Below are positions 8,153 through 17,224 of a DNA stretch of 64,000 nt, piece by piece. Every line of letters starts with the position of its first letter. Position 1 is the first letter of the stretch. The stretch is from the NCBI GenBank assembly GCA_947427035.1, contig CANEGK010000004.1:1-64000 (forward strand), read 5' to 3'. The stretch comes from an uncultured Clostridium sp. (lineage in GTDB: Bacteria; Bacillota; Clostridia; Oscillospirales; Butyricicoccaceae). The position numbers were made by a program, and so were the translations under genes. The notes below the pieces were generated by a model, which did no database searches, was not told the origin of the DNA, and saw only the letters and a list, made by a program, of their open reading frames with translations.

Positions 8153-8207
8153 TTAAGCGTATATGTGAAATGTGAAGACTGTACATAGTCGGCGGAAAGG
8201 GATATTT

Positions 8208-9797
8208 ATGCATACTGTCTGCATTAAAAACGCAACTGTCTACGATGGAACCGGCGCGCCTGCCTTTACGGCCGACGTCAGCTGTGTGGACGGAAAACTG
8301 CATCTGGGCGCGGTTGACGGCGCGCAAGAGGTGCTGGACGGCACGGGGCTGTGCCTGGCCCCGGGCTTTATTGACACCCATTCGCACGGCGACAGCTGCC
8401 TGGGAAACCCGCACAACAGCCTGTCGCGCGTGTCGCAGGGCATCACGACGCAGCTGGCCGGCAACTGCGGCCACACGGTCGTCGTTTTGAACGAAGAGAT
8501 GTACCGCGAAGATAAGCCCGATCTGACCCCGTCGCCGGGGCTGGACGGGCCGGAGCATTTCACCGGCTTCGGCCCCTATCTTGCATACGCGAACAGCCTG
8601 CCGCAGGTCGAAAACACCGCTTTTCTGGTTGGTCACGGCAATCTGCGCCGGGTGGCCATGGGCTTTGACGACCGCGAGCCGACGGCCGGAGAGCTGGCGC
8701 ACATGAAGGCCATGCTGACCGAAGCCATGGAGAACGGCGCCTTCGGCATGAGCTCGGGGCTCATCTACATCCCGGGCGCTTATTCCCGCATCGAAGAAAT
8801 GGCTGAGCTGTGCAAAATTGTCGCGCAGTACGACGGCATTTACGCCACCCATATGCGCAACGAATCGGAAGGCATCCTCGACTCCATCCGCGAAGCCATC
8901 GAGGTGGCGCGGCGCAGCGGCTGCCGGCTCAATATCTCGCACCTGAAGGTGTGCGGCCGGCAAAATCACGGCGTGGCAGAGCAGATGCTCGCCCTGATTC
9001 ATGACGCGCGCAAAGAGGGGCTGCGCGTCTCGGCCGACCAGTATCCGTACGAAGCGTCGTCGACTTCGCTGTCCAGCTGTGTGCCGCCCAAATACTTCAC
9101 CCAGGGCACCGAAGGGCTGGTAAAAATACTGCGCGACCCCGCTATGCGCCGGCAGATCCGCGATGAGATCGAAAACGACACGGTCGCCGATTTTGAAAAC
9201 CTGGTGCTCGGCTGCGGCGGGTTCGGCGGCATCGTCGTCTCGGCCGCGCCCCAAACGCCGGCGGCGGTCGGGAAAACGATAGCAGCCTATGCCCAGGAGC
9301 GCGGGGCCGACGAGTACGAAGTCTTTTTTGACCTGCTGGAAGCCAACGGCGACGGCGCCTGGGCCATTTACTTTGACATCGGCGAGCCGGATTTGATGAA
9401 AATACTGGCCGACCCGACCATCATGGTGGGCACCGACGGCGTCATCACGACGGCCGACGGCCTGTGTCATCCCCGCGCCTTCGGCACCTTCACCCGCGCG
9501 CTCGGCCGTTACGGCCGCGGCAAGGGGCTGCTGCCGCTGGAAGCCATGCTGCACAAAATGACCGGGCTGCCCGCCCGCACGCTGGGCCTTGCGCACAAGG
9601 GCGTCATAGCCGAAGGCATGGACGCCGATCTGGTGCTTTTCAACCCCCAAACGGTGTGTGACCGCGCTGATTTTGCCGATCCGCACCAGCTGTCCGACGG
9701 GATAGAAGCCGTTATCATCGGCGGCGAAGTGGTCTACAGCGCCGGCGCGCTGACCGGAAAAACGCCCGGCCGCGTCATTCTGCGCGGGCAGGGCTGA
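8208..9797 (+). CDS. N-acyl-D-amino-acid deacylase (D-aminoacylase family amidohydrolase)
   Basis: The 529-residue protein fits the D-aminoacylase/dihydroorotase-like amidohydrolase family. The metal site can be read as H58-x-H60 in DTHSHGD, C87 in GNCG, a histidine in THMRNE, another in ISHLK, and the catalytic Asp in VGTDG. Family members free D-amino acids from N-acyl or N-carbamoyl forms. GGCGGAAAGGG precedes the ATG. The next gene, a serine hydrolase, starts 21 bp downstream, so both are likely on one transcript from 8124-8152. The natural substrate is not known. Confidence 0.88.
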   Translation: MHTVCIKNATVYDGTGAPAFTADVSCVDGKLHLGAVDGAQEVLDGTGLCLAPGFIDTHSHGDSCLGNPHNSLSRVSQGITTQLAGNCGHTVVVLNEEMYREDKPDLTPSPGLDGPEHFTGFGPYLAYANSLPQVENTAFLVGHGNLRRVAMGFDDREPTAGELAHMKAMLTEAMENGAFGMSSGLIYIPGAYSRIEEMAELCKIVAQYDGIYATHMRNESEGILDSIREAIEVARRSGCRLNISHLKVCGRQNHGVAEQMLALIHDARKEGLRVSADQYPYEASSTSLSSCVPPKYFTQGTEGLVKILRDPAMRRQIRDEIENDTVADFENLVLGCGGFGGIVVSAAPQTPAAVGKTIAAYAQERGADEYEVFFDLLEANGDGAWAIYFDIGEPDLMKILADPTIMVGTDGVITTADGLCHPRAFGTFTRALGRYGRGKGLLPLEAMLHKMTGLPARTLGLAHKGVIAEGMDADLVLFNPQTVCDRADFADPHQLSDGIEAVIIGGEVVYSAGALTGKTPGRVILRGQG

Positions 9798-9818: not shown

Positions 9819-11153
9819 GTGATCGATTGGAAGAAAACGCTGGAAGATTTTATTACATACTCGTTTGATAAAGGGTTTTTTAACGGGAACTGGCTTTTAA
9901 AAAAGCGGGGCGAAATCGTCAGCCGTGGCTCTCTGGGCCCGGCGCACCCGGCGCGCGGCAACCCGCTGCGCGAGGATACGGTTTTTGAAATGGCGTCGGT
10001 CAGCAAGCATTTTACCGCCACGGCCGTCCTGATTCTGCGTGATCGCGGGGCTTTGTCGCTGGACGACCCGCTGGAAAAATACTTTCCCGGCGCGCCCTAC
10101 CCCGGCATCGTGGTAAAGAATCTGCTCAACCACACCTCCGGCCTGCCGGATTATATGGAATGGCTGGCGGAAAAGGGCGAGCGCGAAAATACCATTTACC
10201 CCAACGCCGCGATGGAGGACTTTCTGCTGCACAGCGGATTGCCCGCGCTGTTTGCCCCCGGCGAGGGCTGGTCCTACTGCAACACGGCGTATGCCCTGTT
10301 GGCGCTTATCATAGAAAAGGCATCCGGCAAAAGCTTTGCCGACTTTATGCGCGACGAGATTTTTGCGCCCTGCGGCATGACGTCGTCATGCGTCTACCAC
10401 CGCCGCCTGCACGGCGAAACCATTGAAAATTATGCCTATGGGATGGTGCTGGACGGGGGCGTTTACAAGCTGCCCGAGGACACGGCCGAAAACCGCTTTG
10501 TCATTCCCCTTGACGGCATTGAAGGCGACGGCATCGTCAACACCACGCTGGACGATATGCTGGCCTGGGACTGCGCCCAGCGCAGCTGCACGGTGCTTTC
10601 AGCGCACTCGCAGGCGGAAATGGCTGCGCCGACCCGCCTGAAAAACGGCGATGAATACCCTTACGGTTACGGCTGGCGCGTCGGCACGGATGCTGACGCA
10701 GGCCGGATCCTTCAGCACAGCGGGGGATGGCCGGGGTACAATACCTATTTTGCACGCCTGCTGGACGAGGACTCCATGCTGGTCTGTATGCTCAACCAGA
10801 CCGGATGCGACAGCCTGGCGCGCAAAGAGGTATTCGAGGGAATGGTTGAAATCCTGTGCGGGCGGGAACCCGCGCTGCCTGCGGCTTTGGCAGAGCAGGA
10901 GGATCAGACGGTCGGGGCGGCCGAGCTTGCGCGCCGCTGCGGCAGTTACGAGGGCGGCATAGAGGTTTATACGGACAACGATCGCCTGATGATGCGCTGG
11001 AATGAATACGGACAGAAGGTGGAAAGCCGGCTTGTCCCCCTCCAGGGCGGCGGGTTTTACCTGACGGAACGGGGCTGCCGCCTTGCGTTGGACGGCAGGA
11101 CAATCCGCGGGGATCTGCTGGGCAGGAAGGCCAGCTTTTCCAAAAAAGAATAG
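9819..11153 (+). CDS. Beta-lactamase-family serine hydrolase (class C fold)
   Basis: The 444-residue protein has the penicillin-recognising serine hydrolase motifs: S60-x-x-K63, Y153-C-N155, and a C-terminal HSGG triad where KTG stands in other members. A C-terminal domain of about 80 residues follows the hydrolase, like the lipocalin-type tail of D-aminopeptidase and EstB-like enzymes. No signal peptide is visible, so it should act in the cytosol. The start is GTG with AAAGGAGG upstream. Paired with the D-aminoacylase, a role in D-amino-acid peptide or amide hydrolysis is plausible; antibiotic resistance is not implied. Confidence 0.85.
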   Translation: MIDWKKTLEDFITYSFDKGFFNGNWLLKKRGEIVSRGSLGPAHPARGNPLREDTVFEMASVSKHFTATAVLILRDRGALSLDDPLEKYFPGAPYPGIVVKNLLNHTSGLPDYMEWLAEKGERENTIYPNAAMEDFLLHSGLPALFAPGEGWSYCNTAYALLALIIEKASGKSFADFMRDEIFAPCGMTSSCVYHRRLHGETIENYAYGMVLDGGVYKLPEDTAENRFVIPLDGIEGDGIVNTTLDDMLAWDCAQRSCTVLSAHSQAEMAAPTRLKNGDEYPYGYGWRVGTDADAGRILQHSGGWPGYNTYFARLLDEDSMLVCMLNQTGCDSLARKEVFEGMVEILCGREPALPAALAEQEDQTVGAAELARRCGSYEGGIEVYTDNDRLMMRWNEYGQKVESRLVPLQGGGFYLTERGCRLALDGRTIRGDLLGRKASFSKKE

Positions 11154-11159
11154 AAAAAA

Positions 11160-11192
11160 ATCACCCCGGGCCGCGGCGCCCGGGGTGATTTT
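11160..11192 (+). terminator. Rho-independent terminator
   Basis: ATCACCCCGGG (11160-11170) pairs with CCCGGGGTGAT (11179-11189), followed by TTT. It ends the 8208-11153 transcript. Confidence 0.8.
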
Positions 11193-11244
11193 CATGCCGA
11201 ACAGTGAAACGGCGTCCGAATTTGCGCGGCTTTTGCAGAAACAC

Positions 11245-11273
11245 TTGCAATTGCGCGCGTTTGCCGTTATGAT
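11245..11273 (+). promoter_or_regulatory. Promoter of the tandem amidohydrolase pair
   Basis: TTGCAA (11245-11250) and TATGAT (11268-11273) are separated by 17 bp, shortly before the ATG at 11312. Confidence 0.65.
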
Positions 11274-11311: not shown

Positions 11312-12454
11312 ATGCTGTTAATTAAAAACGGAAAGGTCTACCTCGGCCAGGGCCGTTACGAGGCCGGCTGGGACGTTTTGTGCGACGGGGCCGTCATCCG
11401 TGAGGTCGGGCCCGGGCTTTCGGCCGACGGGGCCGAGGTCATCGACGCCGCCGGCCGCGACGTGTACCCCGGCCTGGTGCTGGGGCTGTGCGCCGTGGGC
11501 GCCGTGGCCTTCAGCGAAGGCTTTGAGCAGTGGGACATGAACGAGGCGGTAAACCCTGTCAACCCGCAGATGGACATCCGGCACGCGTTTGACCTGCGCG
11601 AGCTGAAATTGCAGCGCTTTGGCCGCGCGGGCGTCACGTCCTACGGCCTGTGCCCCGGCACGCAGGCGCTGGTCGCCGGGCAGGTGTCGCTGATTCACGT
11701 CGACGGCGAACGCACGGCCGACGTGTTCCTGGCCGAGCATATCGCGCTCAAGGGCAACTACACCCAAAGCGTCAAGGATCGCTACAAAGGAAAGGGAGCG
11801 CCCCAGACCCGCATGGCCATGTACCAGATGCTCGACGAAACCTTCCGCGCCGCACAGGAATACATGGACAAGGAAGAAAAGGAGTATGACGAGGGCAAGG
11901 AGGTCCTGTGCCGCGTGCTTCGGCGTGAAATCCCCTTTGCCGTGTCGGCCACCACACCCGGCGAGGTGGAAAGCGTCGTGCAGATCGGCAAAAAGTACAA
12001 TCTCCGGCTGGTCATCACAGGAGCCTACGGGGCCGAAAATATGGCCGGCGAGATCATGGCGCAGGGCTGGCACGTCATGCTGGGCGACAGCAGCTATATG
12101 ATGGCGGGCGTCAAAGGACACACGGATCACAAAAAGCTGGTCGAGCTGTACCGCAAGGGGCTGAAAATGTCGCTCTTCTGCTCGGGCGACGAGGGCTATC
12201 CGCCCGCGTATGAACAGGTGTGGTGGACGGCTGCGGAAATGAGCGCCGCCGGCGCAACCGGCGCGGAAATCATGGACATGGTGACCATCGAGCCGGCGCG
12301 GGCGCTCGGCGTCGACCATCTGGTCGGTTCGCTGGAGGCGGGCAAGCAGGCCGATATCATCATCTGCCGCGGCAACCCGGCCGAGCGGTTTGACAACTAT
12401 ATCGACCAGACCATTGTGGCCGGCCGGCCGTTTTACGCAAGGGAGGGAAAATGA
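11312..12454 (+). CDS. Amidohydrolase-like protein lacking metal ligands (predicted pseudoenzyme)
   Basis: The 380-residue protein aligns end to end with its neighbour at 12451, sharing the segment SADGAEVIDAAG exactly. Yet every metal position is altered. Where the neighbour has H62-T-H64, this one has L59-C-A61. The neighbour's VHCE is VSAT here, LEHGW is VITGAYG, and LITDG is LFCSG. The reading frame is intact with no stop or frameshift, and the fold-defining glycines and the C-terminal beta segment remain. It therefore looks like a conserved non-catalytic subunit rather than a decayed gene. The stop overlaps the next start (ATGA), so the two are translationally coupled. Confidence 0.85.
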   Translation: MLLIKNGKVYLGQGRYEAGWDVLCDGAVIREVGPGLSADGAEVIDAAGRDVYPGLVLGLCAVGAVAFSEGFEQWDMNEAVNPVNPQMDIRHAFDLRELKLQRFGRAGVTSYGLCPGTQALVAGQVSLIHVDGERTADVFLAEHIALKGNYTQSVKDRYKGKGAPQTRMAMYQMLDETFRAAQEYMDKEEKEYDEGKEVLCRVLRREIPFAVSATTPGEVESVVQIGKKYNLRLVITGAYGAENMAGEIMAQGWHVMLGDSSYMMAGVKGHTDHKKLVELYRKGLKMSLFCSGDEGYPPAYEQVWWTAAEMSAAGATGAEIMDMVTIEPARALGVDHLVGSLEAGKQADIIICRGNPAERFDNYIDQTIVAGRPFYAREGK

Positions 12455-13602
12455 TCATGCTGCTCATTAAAAACGCCACCGTTTATACCATGGAGGACGA
12501 CAAAGTCCTGCAAAACACCGATATCCTGTGTGAAGGCGGCAAGATCGCCAAAATCGGCCAGGGCCTTTCGGCCGACGGGGCCGAGGTCATCGACGCCGCC
12601 GGCATGGTTGCCACGCCCGGCCTTATCGACGCGCACACCCACGCGGGCGGCTTTGACCTGAACAGCCCGGATCTCAATGAAATGACGGATCCGGTGACGG
12701 CGCAGCTCGACGCCCTTTACGCCATCGACATTCATTCGCCCGATTTTGAAGAGATTCACACCCGGGGCGTTACGGCCTGCTGCCTGATTCCCGGCTCGGC
12801 CAACGTCGTGTGCGGCACCGGCTTTGTCGCCAAAACGGCGGGCAAGAATACCATTCAGGATCTGGCGGTGCTGCATCCGGCCGTTATGAAGTGCGCCATG
12901 GGCGGCAACCCCAAGGGCTACGGCAAGCGCGGGAAAGCGCCGCAGAGCCGCATGGGCGTGGCCGACATCTTCCGCAGCACGCTGCGCAAAGCCAAAACCT
13001 ATATGGAAAAGCAGGAAGCGGCCGGCGGCGACAAGGAGAAAATGCCCCCGTATGACGCGCAGTGCGAAGCGCTGCTGCCCGTGCTGCGGCGCGAAATCCC
13101 GCTCAAGGTCCACTGCGAGCAGTTCGACATGCTGACCGTTATTGACATCGCGCGCGAGTTCGGCTGCGACTACACCCTTGAGCACGGCTGGGCCTGCAAC
13201 CTGTACGCCGACGAGCTGGTCGCGGGCGGCGGCCCGGTCTGCTTCGGGCCCATCGGCATTGCCGAAGGATACGGCGAGCTGACGGGCGGCGACGTCGCTT
13301 ATCTCAAGGAGCTGGACGAGCGCGGGCTGACCGTCTGCCTCATCACCGACGGGCCCATCTGCGGGCCGCAGGTGCTTGCCATTTCGGCCGGTGACGCGGT
13401 GCGCTATGGCATCGACCATATGCGCGCGCTGCGCATGATCACCATCAACCCCGCGAAAGCGCTGCGCGTCGACGGCAGGCTCGGCTCGCTCAAACCGGGC
13501 AAAGACGCCGACGTCGTGCTGTGGAGCGGCGTGCCCGCGCTGGAGACATCGGCGCACCCGCTGTACACCATCATCGACGGCGCTGTCGTGTACAAGGAAT
13601 AA
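12451..13602 (+). CDS. Amidohydrolase (imidazolonepropionase/prolidase-like), metal site intact
   Basis: The 383-residue protein has the complete amidohydrolase metal set: H62-T-H64 after the first strand, VHCE, LEHGW and the catalytic Asp in ITDGP. A Lys in VMKCAMGG may be the bridging residue. The family hydrolyses cyclic amides or Xaa-Pro-type dipeptides. The start overlaps the stop of the metal-less paralogue upstream, with AAGGGAGG before it. A 1:1 complex of the two products is a reasonable inference. A second in-frame ATG at 12457 is also possible. The substrate is unknown. Confidence 0.85.
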   Translation: MIMLLIKNATVYTMEDDKVLQNTDILCEGGKIAKIGQGLSADGAEVIDAAGMVATPGLIDAHTHAGGFDLNSPDLNEMTDPVTAQLDALYAIDIHSPDFEEIHTRGVTACCLIPGSANVVCGTGFVAKTAGKNTIQDLAVLHPAVMKCAMGGNPKGYGKRGKAPQSRMGVADIFRSTLRKAKTYMEKQEAAGGDKEKMPPYDAQCEALLPVLRREIPLKVHCEQFDMLTVIDIAREFGCDYTLEHGWACNLYADELVAGGGPVCFGPIGIAEGYGELTGGDVAYLKELDERGLTVCLITDGPICGPQVLAISAGDAVRYGIDHMRALRMITINPAKALRVDGRLGSLKPGKDADVVLWSGVPALETSAHPLYTIIDGAVVYKE

Positions 13603-13630
13603 GGTTTAGCAGAAAAGCCTGTGAAAAGAA

Positions 13631-13664
13631 CCGGCCTGACGGAAAGTCAGGCCGGTTTGATTTT
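13631..13664 (+). terminator. Rho-independent terminator
   Basis: CCGGCCTGAC (13631-13640) pairs with GTCAGGCCGG (13646-13655), followed by TTTGATTTT. It closes the amidohydrolase pair. Confidence 0.85.
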
Positions 13665-13667
13665 GGC

Positions 13668-14780
13668 TTAAAGCGGCAGTCCGCAGGATGTGTCAAAAGA
13701 AAGCTCGCAATAAAGCTCGGGGCGGCAGGCGGAGAAGTAACGCTCTTCCAGCGGAATCCAGCGGGTGCGGAAGACCTCGGCATAGTCGGCGCCTTCACGT
13801 TCGGCAATGCGCCGCAGCTGCTCTTCAGGCGAAATCGTCAAAAAGATCCGCAGGTCGTAAAACGCCCGCAGGGCGGGGTGGCAGGAATACGAACCCTCGA
13901 CAACGACGGCGGGCGCACGTTCAAGACAGACAGGCTCGGCCAGACGCTGCGTGTGGCAGTCAAAAGGCCGGTATTCCGGCCAGGCGCCGCCGTGCAAAGG
14001 CAGCAAAACCTCCTGCAAAAAGCGTTCGTGGTCGACGTTGCCGCCCGGCGTCTGGTAGCGCTTTTCCGTCCGCTGCTCGGGACGCAGGAAGAAATGGTCC
14101 ATATGCGCCACCGTGCAGCCGCAGATTTCGCGCAGGCGCGCGGCCAGCGTCGTCTTGCCCGAAGCGCACCGGCCGTCGATGGCGATGAGCAGCGGCCGCG
14201 AAGCGTCGGGGCGGCCGGTCAGCCGGGCGCGAACCAGAGCGGGCAAATCACAGGCAGCGGCGGGCACAAGCGAGCGCAGCACGACCCGATAAGCCGGGCG
14301 GTAGGCGGCGCGGTATTCGCCGCTGTGTGAAACGGGCGGGCAGCCGGCCTGCCGGTATTCGGCCAGATATTGGTCGAGCTCGGCGGCCGAAAAGCGGAAG
14401 AGCCCCTGCCGCGCCAGCGTCTGTAAAAGCCAAAGCTTGCACGCAAAGGAATCCCGGCTGCCGGTGTGCAGCTGCGCCGAACGGACAAAATCGCGGTTGA
14501 GCGCTTCGAACGGGTAGCGCCCGGCGTCAAGCGCCGGCAGCATGACGCGCACCAGACCGTTGCCGATGTCTTCGAAAGGCAAAGCTGCGCCGTCATGCGG
14601 CGTCTGCGCGCACTCGTCCTGAAGGCGGCGAAGGCTGGCGCCGGCGTCGGAAATCAGGTGCCCGCCGCCCCATTCGTTTTGAAAAACCAGCTTGACGGCG
14701 TCACAGGGGCGCATAAGCGGGTATTTTTGGGCATGGGCAGCCAAAACGGCTTCCAATTCGTGCAAATCCGGCGGCGTCAT
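13668..14780 (-). CDS. P-loop nucleoside (uridine) kinase-like protein with N-terminal extension
   Basis: The 370-residue protein has a C-terminal uridine-kinase-like domain. Its Walker A motif GRCASGKT lies at about 203-210, a DHFF motif follows about 25 residues later, and a VVEGSY segment resembles the Walker B region of this fold. The first 190 residues form a separate, conserved-looking domain that I cannot name. Starts further upstream are rejected because they overlap the ECF gene, and AGGAGG sits before the ATG at 14780. It follows the S-component gene by 29 bp on one transcript, suggesting a take-up-then-phosphorylate pair. Confidence 0.75.
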   Translation of the reverse strand: MTPPDLHELEAVLAAHAQKYPLMRPCDAVKLVFQNEWGGGHLISDAGASLRRLQDECAQTPHDGAALPFEDIGNGLVRVMLPALDAGRYPFEALNRDFVRSAQLHTGSRDSFACKLWLLQTLARQGLFRFSAAELDQYLAEYRQAGCPPVSHSGEYRAAYRPAYRVVLRSLVPAAACDLPALVRARLTGRPDASRPLLIAIDGRCASGKTTLAARLREICGCTVAHMDHFFLRPEQRTEKRYQTPGGNVDHERFLQEVLLPLHGGAWPEYRPFDCHTQRLAEPVCLERAPAVVVEGSYSCHPALRAFYDLRIFLTISPEEQLRRIAEREGADYAEVFRTRWIPLEERYFSACRPELYCELSFDTSCGLPL

Positions 14781-14809
14781 GGCGATTCCTCCTGCCTGTG
14801 TCAGTAAAA

Positions 14810-15373
14810 TCAGTTGCCCGAAACCCGAACCGCAAGGCCGGACGGGTAGCGCTGCGGAATGAGCCGCGCTTTGGTCAACGCCAGCACCATAGCGGGCAGC
14901 ACAATCAGCTGCATAATGACGGCGGGCAGCGTCCCCACTATATAAGAGCTGGCCCACAGGGCGATGGAGTAGCTCTGTGCAGACGCGAGGAAGAAGAGGG
15001 CCCGCGCCACGCCGCCGACAACGCGGCCGAGGATCATCGCCGGGACCAGGGACAGGTACAGGTCGGCTGCTATGCGGCCGGTGCGCACAAACTTGTAGAA
15101 AAGCCCGCAGAACAGGCCGTAAGCGCACAGCTCGGGCACCATGCAGACGAGCTGCGCCGCCGGCGGCATTCCGGAAAGCAGGCTGGAAAGGACGGGGCCG
15201 ACCGCGCCGCAGACCAGGCCATAGGGCCATCCGCACAGCAGGCCGCACAGCAGAACGGGCAGGTGCATGGGTGAAAAGGCGGTGCCGAGCGCCAGCGCGT
15301 GAAAAGCCAGCGGCAGCACATAACACAAAGCGGTACAGATTGCGCAGATAGAGATTTTTTTGATGGCAGACAT
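14810..15373 (-). CDS. ECF transporter S-component, substrate unknown
   Basis: The 187-residue integral membrane protein has about six hydrophobic helices, and an N-terminal pattern running from KKISICAICTALCYVLP to a HLPVLLCGLL segment typical of ECF substrate-binding subunits. It must borrow the shared EcfAAT module, which is not in this window. Its leader carries a consensus promoter (15546-15574) and a strong intrinsic terminator before the gene (15417-15462), so expression is probably controlled by a ligand or translation event. The kinase-like gene downstream suggests a vitamin- or nucleoside-like substrate. Confidence 0.8.
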   Translation of the reverse strand: MSAIKKISICAICTALCYVLPLAFHALALGTAFSPMHLPVLLCGLLCGWPYGLVCGAVGPVLSSLLSGMPPAAQLVCMVPELCAYGLFCGLFYKFVRTGRIAADLYLSLVPAMILGRVVGGVARALFFLASAQSYSIALWASSYIVGTLPAVIMQLIVLPAMVLALTKARLIPQRYPSGLAVRVSGN

Positions 15374-15416
15374 AAAAACTCCTCCTTACGGTTTCCGCCG
15401 CGGCGCGCTCAGGGCG

Positions 15417-15472
15417 GAAAAGAAAAAGGTATGCCCTTTCTCTGCGAGAAAGCGCATACCTTCATGGTATAC
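15417..15472 (-). promoter_or_regulatory. Transcription attenuator in ECF leader
   Basis: On the minus strand a 15-bp stem with one mismatch and a 3-nt loop spans 15428-15460. It is followed by a T-rich tract ending at 15417, some 45 nt before the start codon. A competing hairpin can form between GTATACC (15466-15472) and GGTATGC (15454-15460), which would break the terminator. No T-box or known aptamer signature was recognised in the leader. Confidence 0.7.
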
Positions 15473-15545
15473 AAGTCAAATCAAAAGAAAACGCGCACAG
15501 GCGCTTCAGCGCCAAAGGCGGGCTTCATGCCGGCCGAACACTTTT

Positions 15546-15574
15546 ATTATAAAAATATTCGGCGGGATTGTCAA
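15546..15574 (-). promoter_or_regulatory. Consensus promoter of the ECF/kinase operon
   Basis: On the minus strand TTGACA (15569-15574) and TATAAT (15546-15551) are separated by 17 bp. This predicts a 5' leader of about 165 nt. Confidence 0.85.
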
Positions 15575-15596
15575 GAGGGCGGCGCGCACATCCTTT

Positions 15597-16178
15597 TTAA
15601 ACACCCTTCTCTATAAAATGCACAGAAGACTGATTCCAATACCGTTTGTACACTCTGTTTGTATTTCTATCAAGGTTCAACTGGTACATCCGAAAGAGAA
15701 CGAGGATGTTTTTCGGCTGCCACTGTTCTTCATAGGAATATTGATAACGCATACCCAGCCGCTTCATGACTGCGCCGCTTCGGGGGTTGTTGACATCGTG
15801 CGTTGCCGTAATATAGGGGACCCCCTCTTTCCTCAGCCGTTCAATGACCGCCCGGCAGGCTTCTGTTGCAATCCCCTGATGCCAAAACGCTTTGCGAAGC
15901 CCATAGCCGAAATCATAGCTGCCATCTGCGGCGACATTGACATAGCCGATGGGAAAATTATCTTTTTTTAAGCAGACTGCGTAGCTGTACAAAGGGTTCT
16001 GGCGGGTTTTGAAAAAGGCCCGCGCTTCTTCCCTTGTTTTTAACGGAAACCATGGCAAAAATCGGTTGGCTTCGGCGTCGCTGTAAATCTGATAGAAAGC
16101 TTCCATATCGCTTTCCGTAAATTTTCGCAATACAAGCCGCTCTGTCTGAAGGGTTGGCGTGTTCGCATGACTTTCCAT
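15597..16178 (-). CDS. GNAT family N-acetyltransferase (RimJ/RimL type)
   Basis: The 193-residue protein has a GNAT fold: an ERLVLRKF start typical of the RimJ/RimL group, and a region RKAFWHQGIATEACRAVIE near the acetyl-CoA loop. Acceptors in this group include ribosomal protein N-termini and amino-sugar antibiotics; the target here is not clear. ATG 16178 is taken as start, though a GTG at 16193 in frame would add five residues, and neither has a strong ribosome binding site. Its base composition is more AT-rich than its neighbours. Confidence 0.8.
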   Translation of the reverse strand: MESHANTPTLQTERLVLRKFTESDMEAFYQIYSDAEANRFLPWFPLKTREEARAFFKTRQNPLYSYAVCLKKDNFPIGYVNVAADGSYDFGYGLRKAFWHQGIATEACRAVIERLRKEGVPYITATHDVNNPRSGAVMKRLGMRYQYSYEEQWQPKNILVLFRMYQLNLDRNTNRVYKRYWNQSSVHFIEKGV

Positions 16179-16284
16179 TTTATGACTTATCACTCCAATC
16201 GCAGGGCCGGAACTCCCCCTTCATTTGCTGTAAAATGCAGGCCGACTGACCGCCCTGCCGCAGCGCCGGAATCTGCCATACGCC

Positions 16285-16653
16285 TTACCGCGCGTCCTTT
16301 AATTTCTGTACGGCTTCTTCTTTTGTTGCGACAAAAAAGAAGTCCCTGCCGTTGTTGGACTCGTACAGGAAGTCTCTGAGCGGCTTGCTGGTATAGTGTG
16401 AAAAATCGCCGTAAACGGCGGCTTTGACATGATAGTTGATGAACTTTTGCAAAATCTCCCCGGCAACGCCGGTGCTGAGGATAAAAAAGTCATCGCAAAT
16501 CGTTCGCTTGTCCAGGACAATGCGGTCGGCGCCGGTTTCATATTTGACGGTCATGGCCAGATCCAGGGCTGACTGCGGGTCGCAAATCAGCGTTTCATCG
16601 CCCGAAACCAGGGCGATTGTGACGTTATCTGTTTTCATGCTTTCTATGTTCAT
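16285..16653 (-). CDS. DUF4180 domain-containing protein
   Basis: The 122-residue protein matches the DUF4180 pattern, including an SALDLAMTVKYETG segment, a DDFFILSTGVAGEILQKF segment and a C-terminal NNGRDFFFV stretch. The fold is thought to be small alpha/beta, and the function is unknown. AAGGAG lies nine bases before the ATG at 16653; an ATG at 16662 abuts that site and is less likely. A TTGACA-N17-TACAAT promoter is visible at 16703-16731. The gene stands alone. Confidence 0.8.
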   Translation of the reverse strand: MNIESMKTDNVTIALVSGDETLICDPQSALDLAMTVKYETGADRIVLDKRTICDDFFILSTGVAGEILQKFINYHVKAAVYGDFSHYTSKPLRDFLYESNNGRDFFFVATKEEAVQKLKDAR

Positions 16654-16702
16654 TGTTTTCATCTCCTTTTTGGCGCACGGTGCAAATCCCCGATGAAGCC
16701 CG

Positions 16703-16731
16703 ATTGTACCAGTTTTGCGCCGCTTTGTCAA
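16703..16731 (-). promoter_or_regulatory. Promoter of the DUF4180 gene
   Basis: On the minus strand TTGACA (16726-16731) and TACAAT (16703-16708) are separated by 17 bp. Confidence 0.75.
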
Positions 16732-16752
16732 ACACACGGGGAATGCGCTGCA

Positions 16753-16781
16753 TTGAAGAAGGCCGGCCGGCGTGATATAAT
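16753..16781 (+). promoter_or_regulatory. Promoter of the DUF3842 gene
   Basis: TTGAAG (16753-16758) and TATAAT (16776-16781) are separated by 17 bp. It is divergent from the DUF4180 promoter, 22 bp away. Confidence 0.75.
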
Positions 16782-16816
16782 GAATCATCCATACGGGAAT
16801 TGCAGGTGATCCATCC

Positions 16817-17224
16817 ATGAAAATCCTCATCATCGACGCCCAGGGCGGGGGAATTGGCCGGCAGCTGGTCGCGTCGGTCAAGCAGGCGCTGCCGGGCGCC
16901 GACATTATGGCGGTCGGGGCCAACAGCGCCGCCACCGCCGCCATGCTCAAAGCCGGGGCGGACAACGCCGCGACAGGCGAAAACGCCGTGGTCGTGGCCT
17001 GCCGCAGCGCCGACGTCATCATGGGGCCGGTCGGCATCGTCATCGCCGATTCGCTGTTCGGCGAAATCACGCCGGCCATGGCCGCCGCCGTTGGGCAGAG
17101 CGGCGCGGCGCGCATTCTCATCCCCTTCAACCACTGCGGCAACATCATCGCCGGCGTGTCCGGCCAGAGCGCCGGCGCGCTCATTAAAAGCGCCGTCGAC
17201 GCGCTGTTGGAGCTGGCGAGGTAA
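16817..17224 (+). CDS. DUF3842 family protein
   Basis: The 135-residue protein has the hallmark DUF3842 start, ILIIDAQGGGIGRQLV, a Rossmann-like nucleotide-binding strand and glycine loop. A VVACRSADVIMGPVGIV segment follows in the middle. The family is largely restricted to Clostridia and its role is unknown. It is small, soluble and alanine-rich. It ends 3 bp from the convergent stop of the ABC exporter gene and has its own promoter at 16753-16781. Confidence 0.85.
   Translation: MKILIIDAQGGGIGRQLVASVKQALPGADIMAVGANSAATAAMLKAGADNAATGENAVVVACRSADVIMGPVGIVIADSLFGEITPAMAAAVGQSGAARILIPFNHCGNIIAGVSGQSAGALIKSAVDALLELAR

Follow-up and report, generated by a model that had tools for sequence, protein, structure and literature searches.

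Within the window, by which we mean the whole 64,000-nt stretch of DNA analysed here, a gene for an amidohydrolase-like protein that appears to have no metal centre directly precedes the gene for an intact paralogue. Why a copy of this kind is kept in front of its paralogue, and whether the two chains could work as one enzyme, are the questions raised by this locus. An earlier note, made from the letters alone, had proposed an obligate complex with one dead subunit.

Fold and Metal Ligands of the Two Proteins

The first ORF (11312..12454, + strand) encodes P0001, a metal-less TM0814-type amidohydrolase paralogue of 380 aa, hereafter called the dead copy. The second ORF (12451..13602, + strand) encodes its live paralogue P0002, of 383 aa, the true start of which is possibly 12457. 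Both frames were intact and lay where the earlier note had put them, and the two proteins share 33% identity. In phmmer searches against the PDB, 3OOQ was matched over the full length by P0002 (E 3e-66) and by P0001 (E 1.2e-31). This structure is a Thermotoga maritima amidohydrolase, which we take to be the product of locus TM0814. The AlphaFold2 model of P0001 (pLDDT 81.4, pTM 0.86) superposed on 3OOQ with a Z of 42.5 over 370 residues, and that of P0002 (pLDDT 82.1) with a Z of 47.1 over 373 residues. By this full-length match both proteins were assigned to the amidohydrolase fold, sharing the fold of TM0814/3OOQ along their whole length, and the model supports the proposal that the first protein keeps the full fold.

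At the five His/Asp ligand positions, P0001 carries L59, A61, S212, G237, and S291, the changes being HxH to L59-x-A61, VHC to VS212A, EHG to TG237A, and TDG to CS291G. P0002 has the complete set that had been ascribed to it, with H62xH64, K147, H221, H245, and D300. The statement that the first protein has lost all metal ligands is correct for the five His/Asp residues, but the beta4 lysine, a ligand-type residue, is retained as K147 in P0001 and is also kept in 12/18 dead homologues. With none of the five His/Asp ligands, P0001 is a homologue and not a catalytic member of the TM0814/3OOQ-type amidohydrolases.

The Dead-Live Pair Recurs in Bacillota

Samples at the family, order, class, and phylum levels were searched with the dead protein and its alignment, and one collection of named genomes was also scanned. 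The search for the same tandem elsewhere, which the earlier note had called for, turned up 18 loci of the dead-live type, spread over 14 Bacillota genomes, ruling out a local oddity of one MAG. The dead copy was followed immediately downstream by the live copy in 18/18 loci. All five His/Asp ligands were absent in every full-length dead homologue and present in every full-length live partner. A different contig of the window's own genome (G000:C30; L128, about 14768-17118, and L149) carries a further dead-live tandem, which is preceded by genes for Opp transporters, SBP5 proteins, and an M14 carboxypeptidase. The pair is nevertheless rare, being found in 5 of the 398 genomes of the phylum sample, including the window's own.

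When the live-partner profile was run against this 398-genome sample, an E-value gap was observed, with the partner clade extending to 1.7e-131 and other matches starting from 1.1e-123. Those next-best matches that were checked proved to be copies with the GENPK Glu. The possibility that the first gene is often lost while the second is kept was not borne out, every partner-clade match in the 398 genomes adjoining a dead gene and none standing without one. A match from the phylum sample (G962) was considered as a dead copy and rejected as a live unpaired member. Tandems in G053 and G054 (L030, L024) were likewise discarded as dead-live cases, both copies being live, and three TM0814-type family copies stand in tandem in another genome (G1247:C1:984792-988320). 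It is possible that these tandem copies represent intermediates of the dead-live state.

Some loci showed other arrangements. In G1087 (L117, L122, L123) there are three dead copies; one contig reads live-dead-live, and the contig ends suggest a dead-live-dead-live array. In G786, the dead gene (L119, 8337-9248) has a broken N-terminus. Because the adjoining SBP gene is split too, an assembly error is likely.

Phylogeny and Selection

In a careful ML tree, the dead copies formed a monophyletic clade (100/100), as did the live partners (99/99). The two clades were each other's sister (95/81), with the unpaired members outside them, in a tree whose rooting depends on a single distant outgroup row. 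Subgroups inside the dead and live clades largely corresponded, and path lengths of the two were closely correlated (Mantel r 0.89; 0/20,000 permutations as high). The sister clades and the congruent subgroups and path lengths are explained if, in Bacillota, a single duplication and a single loss of the metal centre were followed by inheritance as a unit.

Omega values were estimated by NG86 for pairs with unsaturated dS, distant pairs being saturated. For the dead gene, omega was 0.215 (G084/G085), 0.225 (second pair), and 0.265 to 0.307 (window versus relatives). The live gene gave 0.108 to 0.204 and a neighbouring enzyme 0.167; dead-gene omega was thus about 1.3 to 2 times that of the live gene, and the evolutionary rate of the dead sequences is about 1.7 times that of the live ones. 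The relaxed selection (dN/dS near 1) that the earlier note had considered was therefore not found, and the omega of 0.215-0.307 indicates purifying selection on the dead gene. A decaying pseudogene could account for the lost ligands and for the broken N-terminus in G786, itself a probable assembly error, but the frame is open in the other copies, omega is 0.22-0.31, and the protein is conserved over many families. Omega well below 1 and this deep conservation refute such a reading, to which we give almost no credence. Very likely, the dead copy is a functional partner subunit and no relic.

Gene Junction and Expression Signals

The letters do contain the ATGA overlap of the two genes that was described earlier, but in homologous live proteins the first residue corresponds to the second Met (12457). 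A start at 12457 also suits the Shine-Dalgarno-like AGGGAGG better, so that the live gene may truly begin 2 bases past the stop of the dead gene. In the other pairs, the dead and live genes either overlap by 1-13 bases or are separated by a gap within about 5 bases. Such junctions are consistent with translational coupling of the dead and live genes.

A strong GC-rich hairpin (11156-11193) separates the pair from the upstream beta-lactamase-family gene, and therefore the dead-live pair may form its own transcription unit. A promoter-like TTGCAA-17-TATGAT (11245..11273, + strand), of a kind whose count is at chance level, lies upstream of the dead gene, and a terminator-like hairpin (13628..13658, + strand) lies 3′ of the live gene.

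Residues Peculiar to Dead or Live Copies

Q101 and W305 were specific to the dead copies and invariant in every dead row with a letter there. G237 and D259 were mostly conserved, and an Asn occupied the beta5 His position in 12/18. Residues conserved in this way could mean that the first protein is active via another site, either metal-independent or differently ligated. However, unlike in a catalytic site, the residues found where the ligands used to be differ freely from one dead subclade to the next (L/M/V/Q/G for the first His; S/C/G/T/A/N/L for the Asp), and a new activity of the dead chain appears quite improbable.

The live partners have also changed. The GENPK Glu after beta4, which would be either a metal ligand or a substrate binder, was present in all unpaired homologues sampled. 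P0002 carries GGNPK instead, and the live partners have Gly most often, or Ile/Met/Ala, with Glu only in the partner of G1147. Compared with unpaired relatives, they also show R to Q and T to W replacements beside the beta5 and beta6 ligands. The unpaired TM0814/3OOQ-type relatives in Bacillota have all ligands and GENPK, whereas the window pair combines a metal-less partner with a live copy without the Glu.

Dead-Live Fusions in Planctomycetota

A protein of an uncultured Pirellula (L043, 3211-6963) has 1250 residues and two family domains, the first without and the second with ligands. Related proteins were common in 149 Planctomycetota genomes, and dead-live fusions of about 1000-1500 aa were found in 19 Planctomycetota loci (L043, L180-L197). 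In 18/18 of the further loci (L180-L197), the N-terminal part of the fusion is a dead domain, a live one comes next, and an extra metal-less copy is present downstream or as a third domain. A few of these dead domains retain one His or Asp by alignment. The fusions resemble the Bacillota pair in belonging to the same family and in having the dead domain first and the live domain second. They differ in forming a single polypeptide, in the further dead copy downstream, in the Glu kept by the live domain, and in the separate placement of the loss. In a quick tree, the Planctomycetota dead lineages were separated from the Bacillota dead clade; independent loss is therefore preferred to a common origin, and the metal centre appears to have been lost at least twice.

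These fusions are the strongest evidence for dead and live units working in one assembly. Co-inheritance and adjacency by themselves show functional coupling, as distinct from physical contact; physical assembly is argued because the same gene order is found in 18 loci and because the Planctomycetota fusions are independent. Two adjacent paralogues that never interact might be kept by operon inheritance or by horizontal transfer as a unit, and peptide-transporter operons do travel together. Yet a ligand-less protein under purifying selection needs some function, and the fusions repeat the association independently, so that we consider mere neighbourhood very improbable. Alternatively, the dead protein might exist on its own and bind ligands or regulate, as a sensor or an inhibitor whose contact with the live enzyme is only transient. 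The kept fold, the conservation of clade-specific residues, and the beta4 Lys in most dead copies would suit this role, but the unvarying position and order of the genes at 18 loci, congruent trees, and natural fusions fit a permanent assembly better, making a free regulator unlikely.

Gene Neighbourhood and Possible Substrates

Upstream of the window pair stand an N-acyl-D-amino-acid deacylase-like amidohydrolase gene (Amidohydro_3; 8172..9797, + strand), which also neighbours the pair in G084 and G085, and a gene for a beta-lactamase-family (PF00144) serine hydrolase (9819..11153, + strand), seen at the window locus only. The former product is presumably a D-acylase, judging by resemblance. 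D-acylase-like enzymes precede 3/18 pairs, including that of the window. Genes of Opp-type peptide ABC transporters or their binding protein were found beside 9/18 pairs, and 7/18 have a gene for an M14 carboxypeptidase or S9 oligopeptidase next to them. Overall, 13 of the 18 paired loci have an Opp, peptidase, or D-acylase neighbour; at the other 5/18, no peptide-related gene was in view, on contigs that are short or have none. By comparison, one weak OppF match was all that came from 15 control loci with unpaired members of the family. Prolidases and Lys/Arg carboxypeptidases are among the solved folds that come nearest once 3OOQ is set aside. Together with the gene neighbours, these folds suggest that the substrates are most likely peptides, or N-acyl/D-amino-acid derivatives of them.

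A Model for the Pair and Its Relation to Known Systems

We favour the explanation that the two chains form an obligate hetero-oligomer that hydrolyses peptides or acyl-amino acids, one of its subunits being a metal-less partner, and regard it as probable. An ancestral TM0814-type amidohydrolase gene would have been duplicated once in Bacillota. The first copy would then have lost its metal centre and become a dedicated partner subunit, and the second would have stayed catalytic with a remodelled active-site rim. Both chains would be encoded by neighbouring genes whose translation is probably coupled, and the assembly would very likely be an obligate hetero-oligomer of the (dead+live)n type, a contact and stoichiometry that we infer. 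The dead chain would replace a second catalytic subunit, stabilise the live chain, and most likely shape or gate its substrate entrance. Substrates may enter the cell through Opp-type transporters or be set free by peptidases encoded alongside. A broader idea, which we hold more tentatively, is that hetero-assemblies with metal-less subunits evolved at least twice, Bacillota having tandem genes and Planctomycetota dead-live(-dead) fusions and arrays, and that the dead subunit helps to build the live entrance, letting the live copy lose the conserved Glu and shift its specificity.

Related arrangements have been described in the superfamily. The AibH1H2 hydroxylase of Rhodococcus wratislaviensis is an (alpha-beta)2 heterotetramer of amidohydrolase-related chains, one being catalytic and AibH1 being thought structural; it is a monooxygenase with ferredoxin partners, and AibH1 still binds metal through ligands needed for solubility (PMC12141560, PMC10401708). 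Like the window pair, it consists of two amidohydrolase-fold chains encoded together, but AibH1 has a metal site, whereas all five His/Asp ligands are gone from the dead partner in the window. Unlike in the AibH1H2 system, no redox genes were seen among those neighbours of the pair that were looked at. In Pseudomonas aeruginosa, the pseudo-dihydroorotase (pDHO), an inactive amidohydrolase-fold chain, is necessary for ATCase activity (PMC7053772). The pDHO serves an unrelated enzyme, whereas the dead chain of the window is paired with its own live paralogue. P0001 matched dihydroorotases at E 3e-5 or weaker and over about residues 1-56 only, its closest relative being 3OOQ and not a dihydroorotase. 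Moreover, the ATCase gene (pyrB) is not beside the window pair, where the Amidohydro_3 and beta-lactamase-family proteins are encoded.

In the open literature, a scope that leaves out most subscription journals, no papers were found on 3OOQ/TM0814 or on dead-live amidohydrolase pairs, and none on the Planctomycetota fusions. The suggestion that the arrangement would be new for this family thus holds for TM0814-type pairs, but AibH1H2 (PMC12141560, PMC10401708) and pDHO (PMC7053772) are precedents in the superfamily. As far as found, the principle of a dead or structural amidohydrolase subunit is already known, and what is new is the TM0814-type family, the metal-free subunit, and the recurrence. 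The system makes it testable why enzymes swap one catalytic subunit for a dead one: the duplication is single and clean, the same genomes supply unpaired members as controls, and a second phylum has counterparts that were fused independently. It also gives a structurally solved family a functional handle in peptide import and breakdown. For annotation, it is a warning that many "amidohydrolase" genes in Bacillota and Planctomycetota are without the metal site.

A Tract Shared by the Two Genes of the Window

The two proteins had been said to share an identical 12-residue stretch; its actual length is 14 residues (GLSADGAEVIDAAG). The codons of GLSADGAEVIDAAG occupy a 42-bp tract in the dead gene (11414..11455, + strand) and a matching tract in the live gene (12562..12603, + strand), with 41/42 bases equal and an exact run of 39 bp. 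This identity exceeds the expectation from shared codon usage (mean 34.4, P 0.0016). In the other dead-live pairs checked, the near-identical 42-bp tract was absent and the longest shared run was 16 bp at most. Both observations make a local gene conversion between the window's dead and live genes likely.
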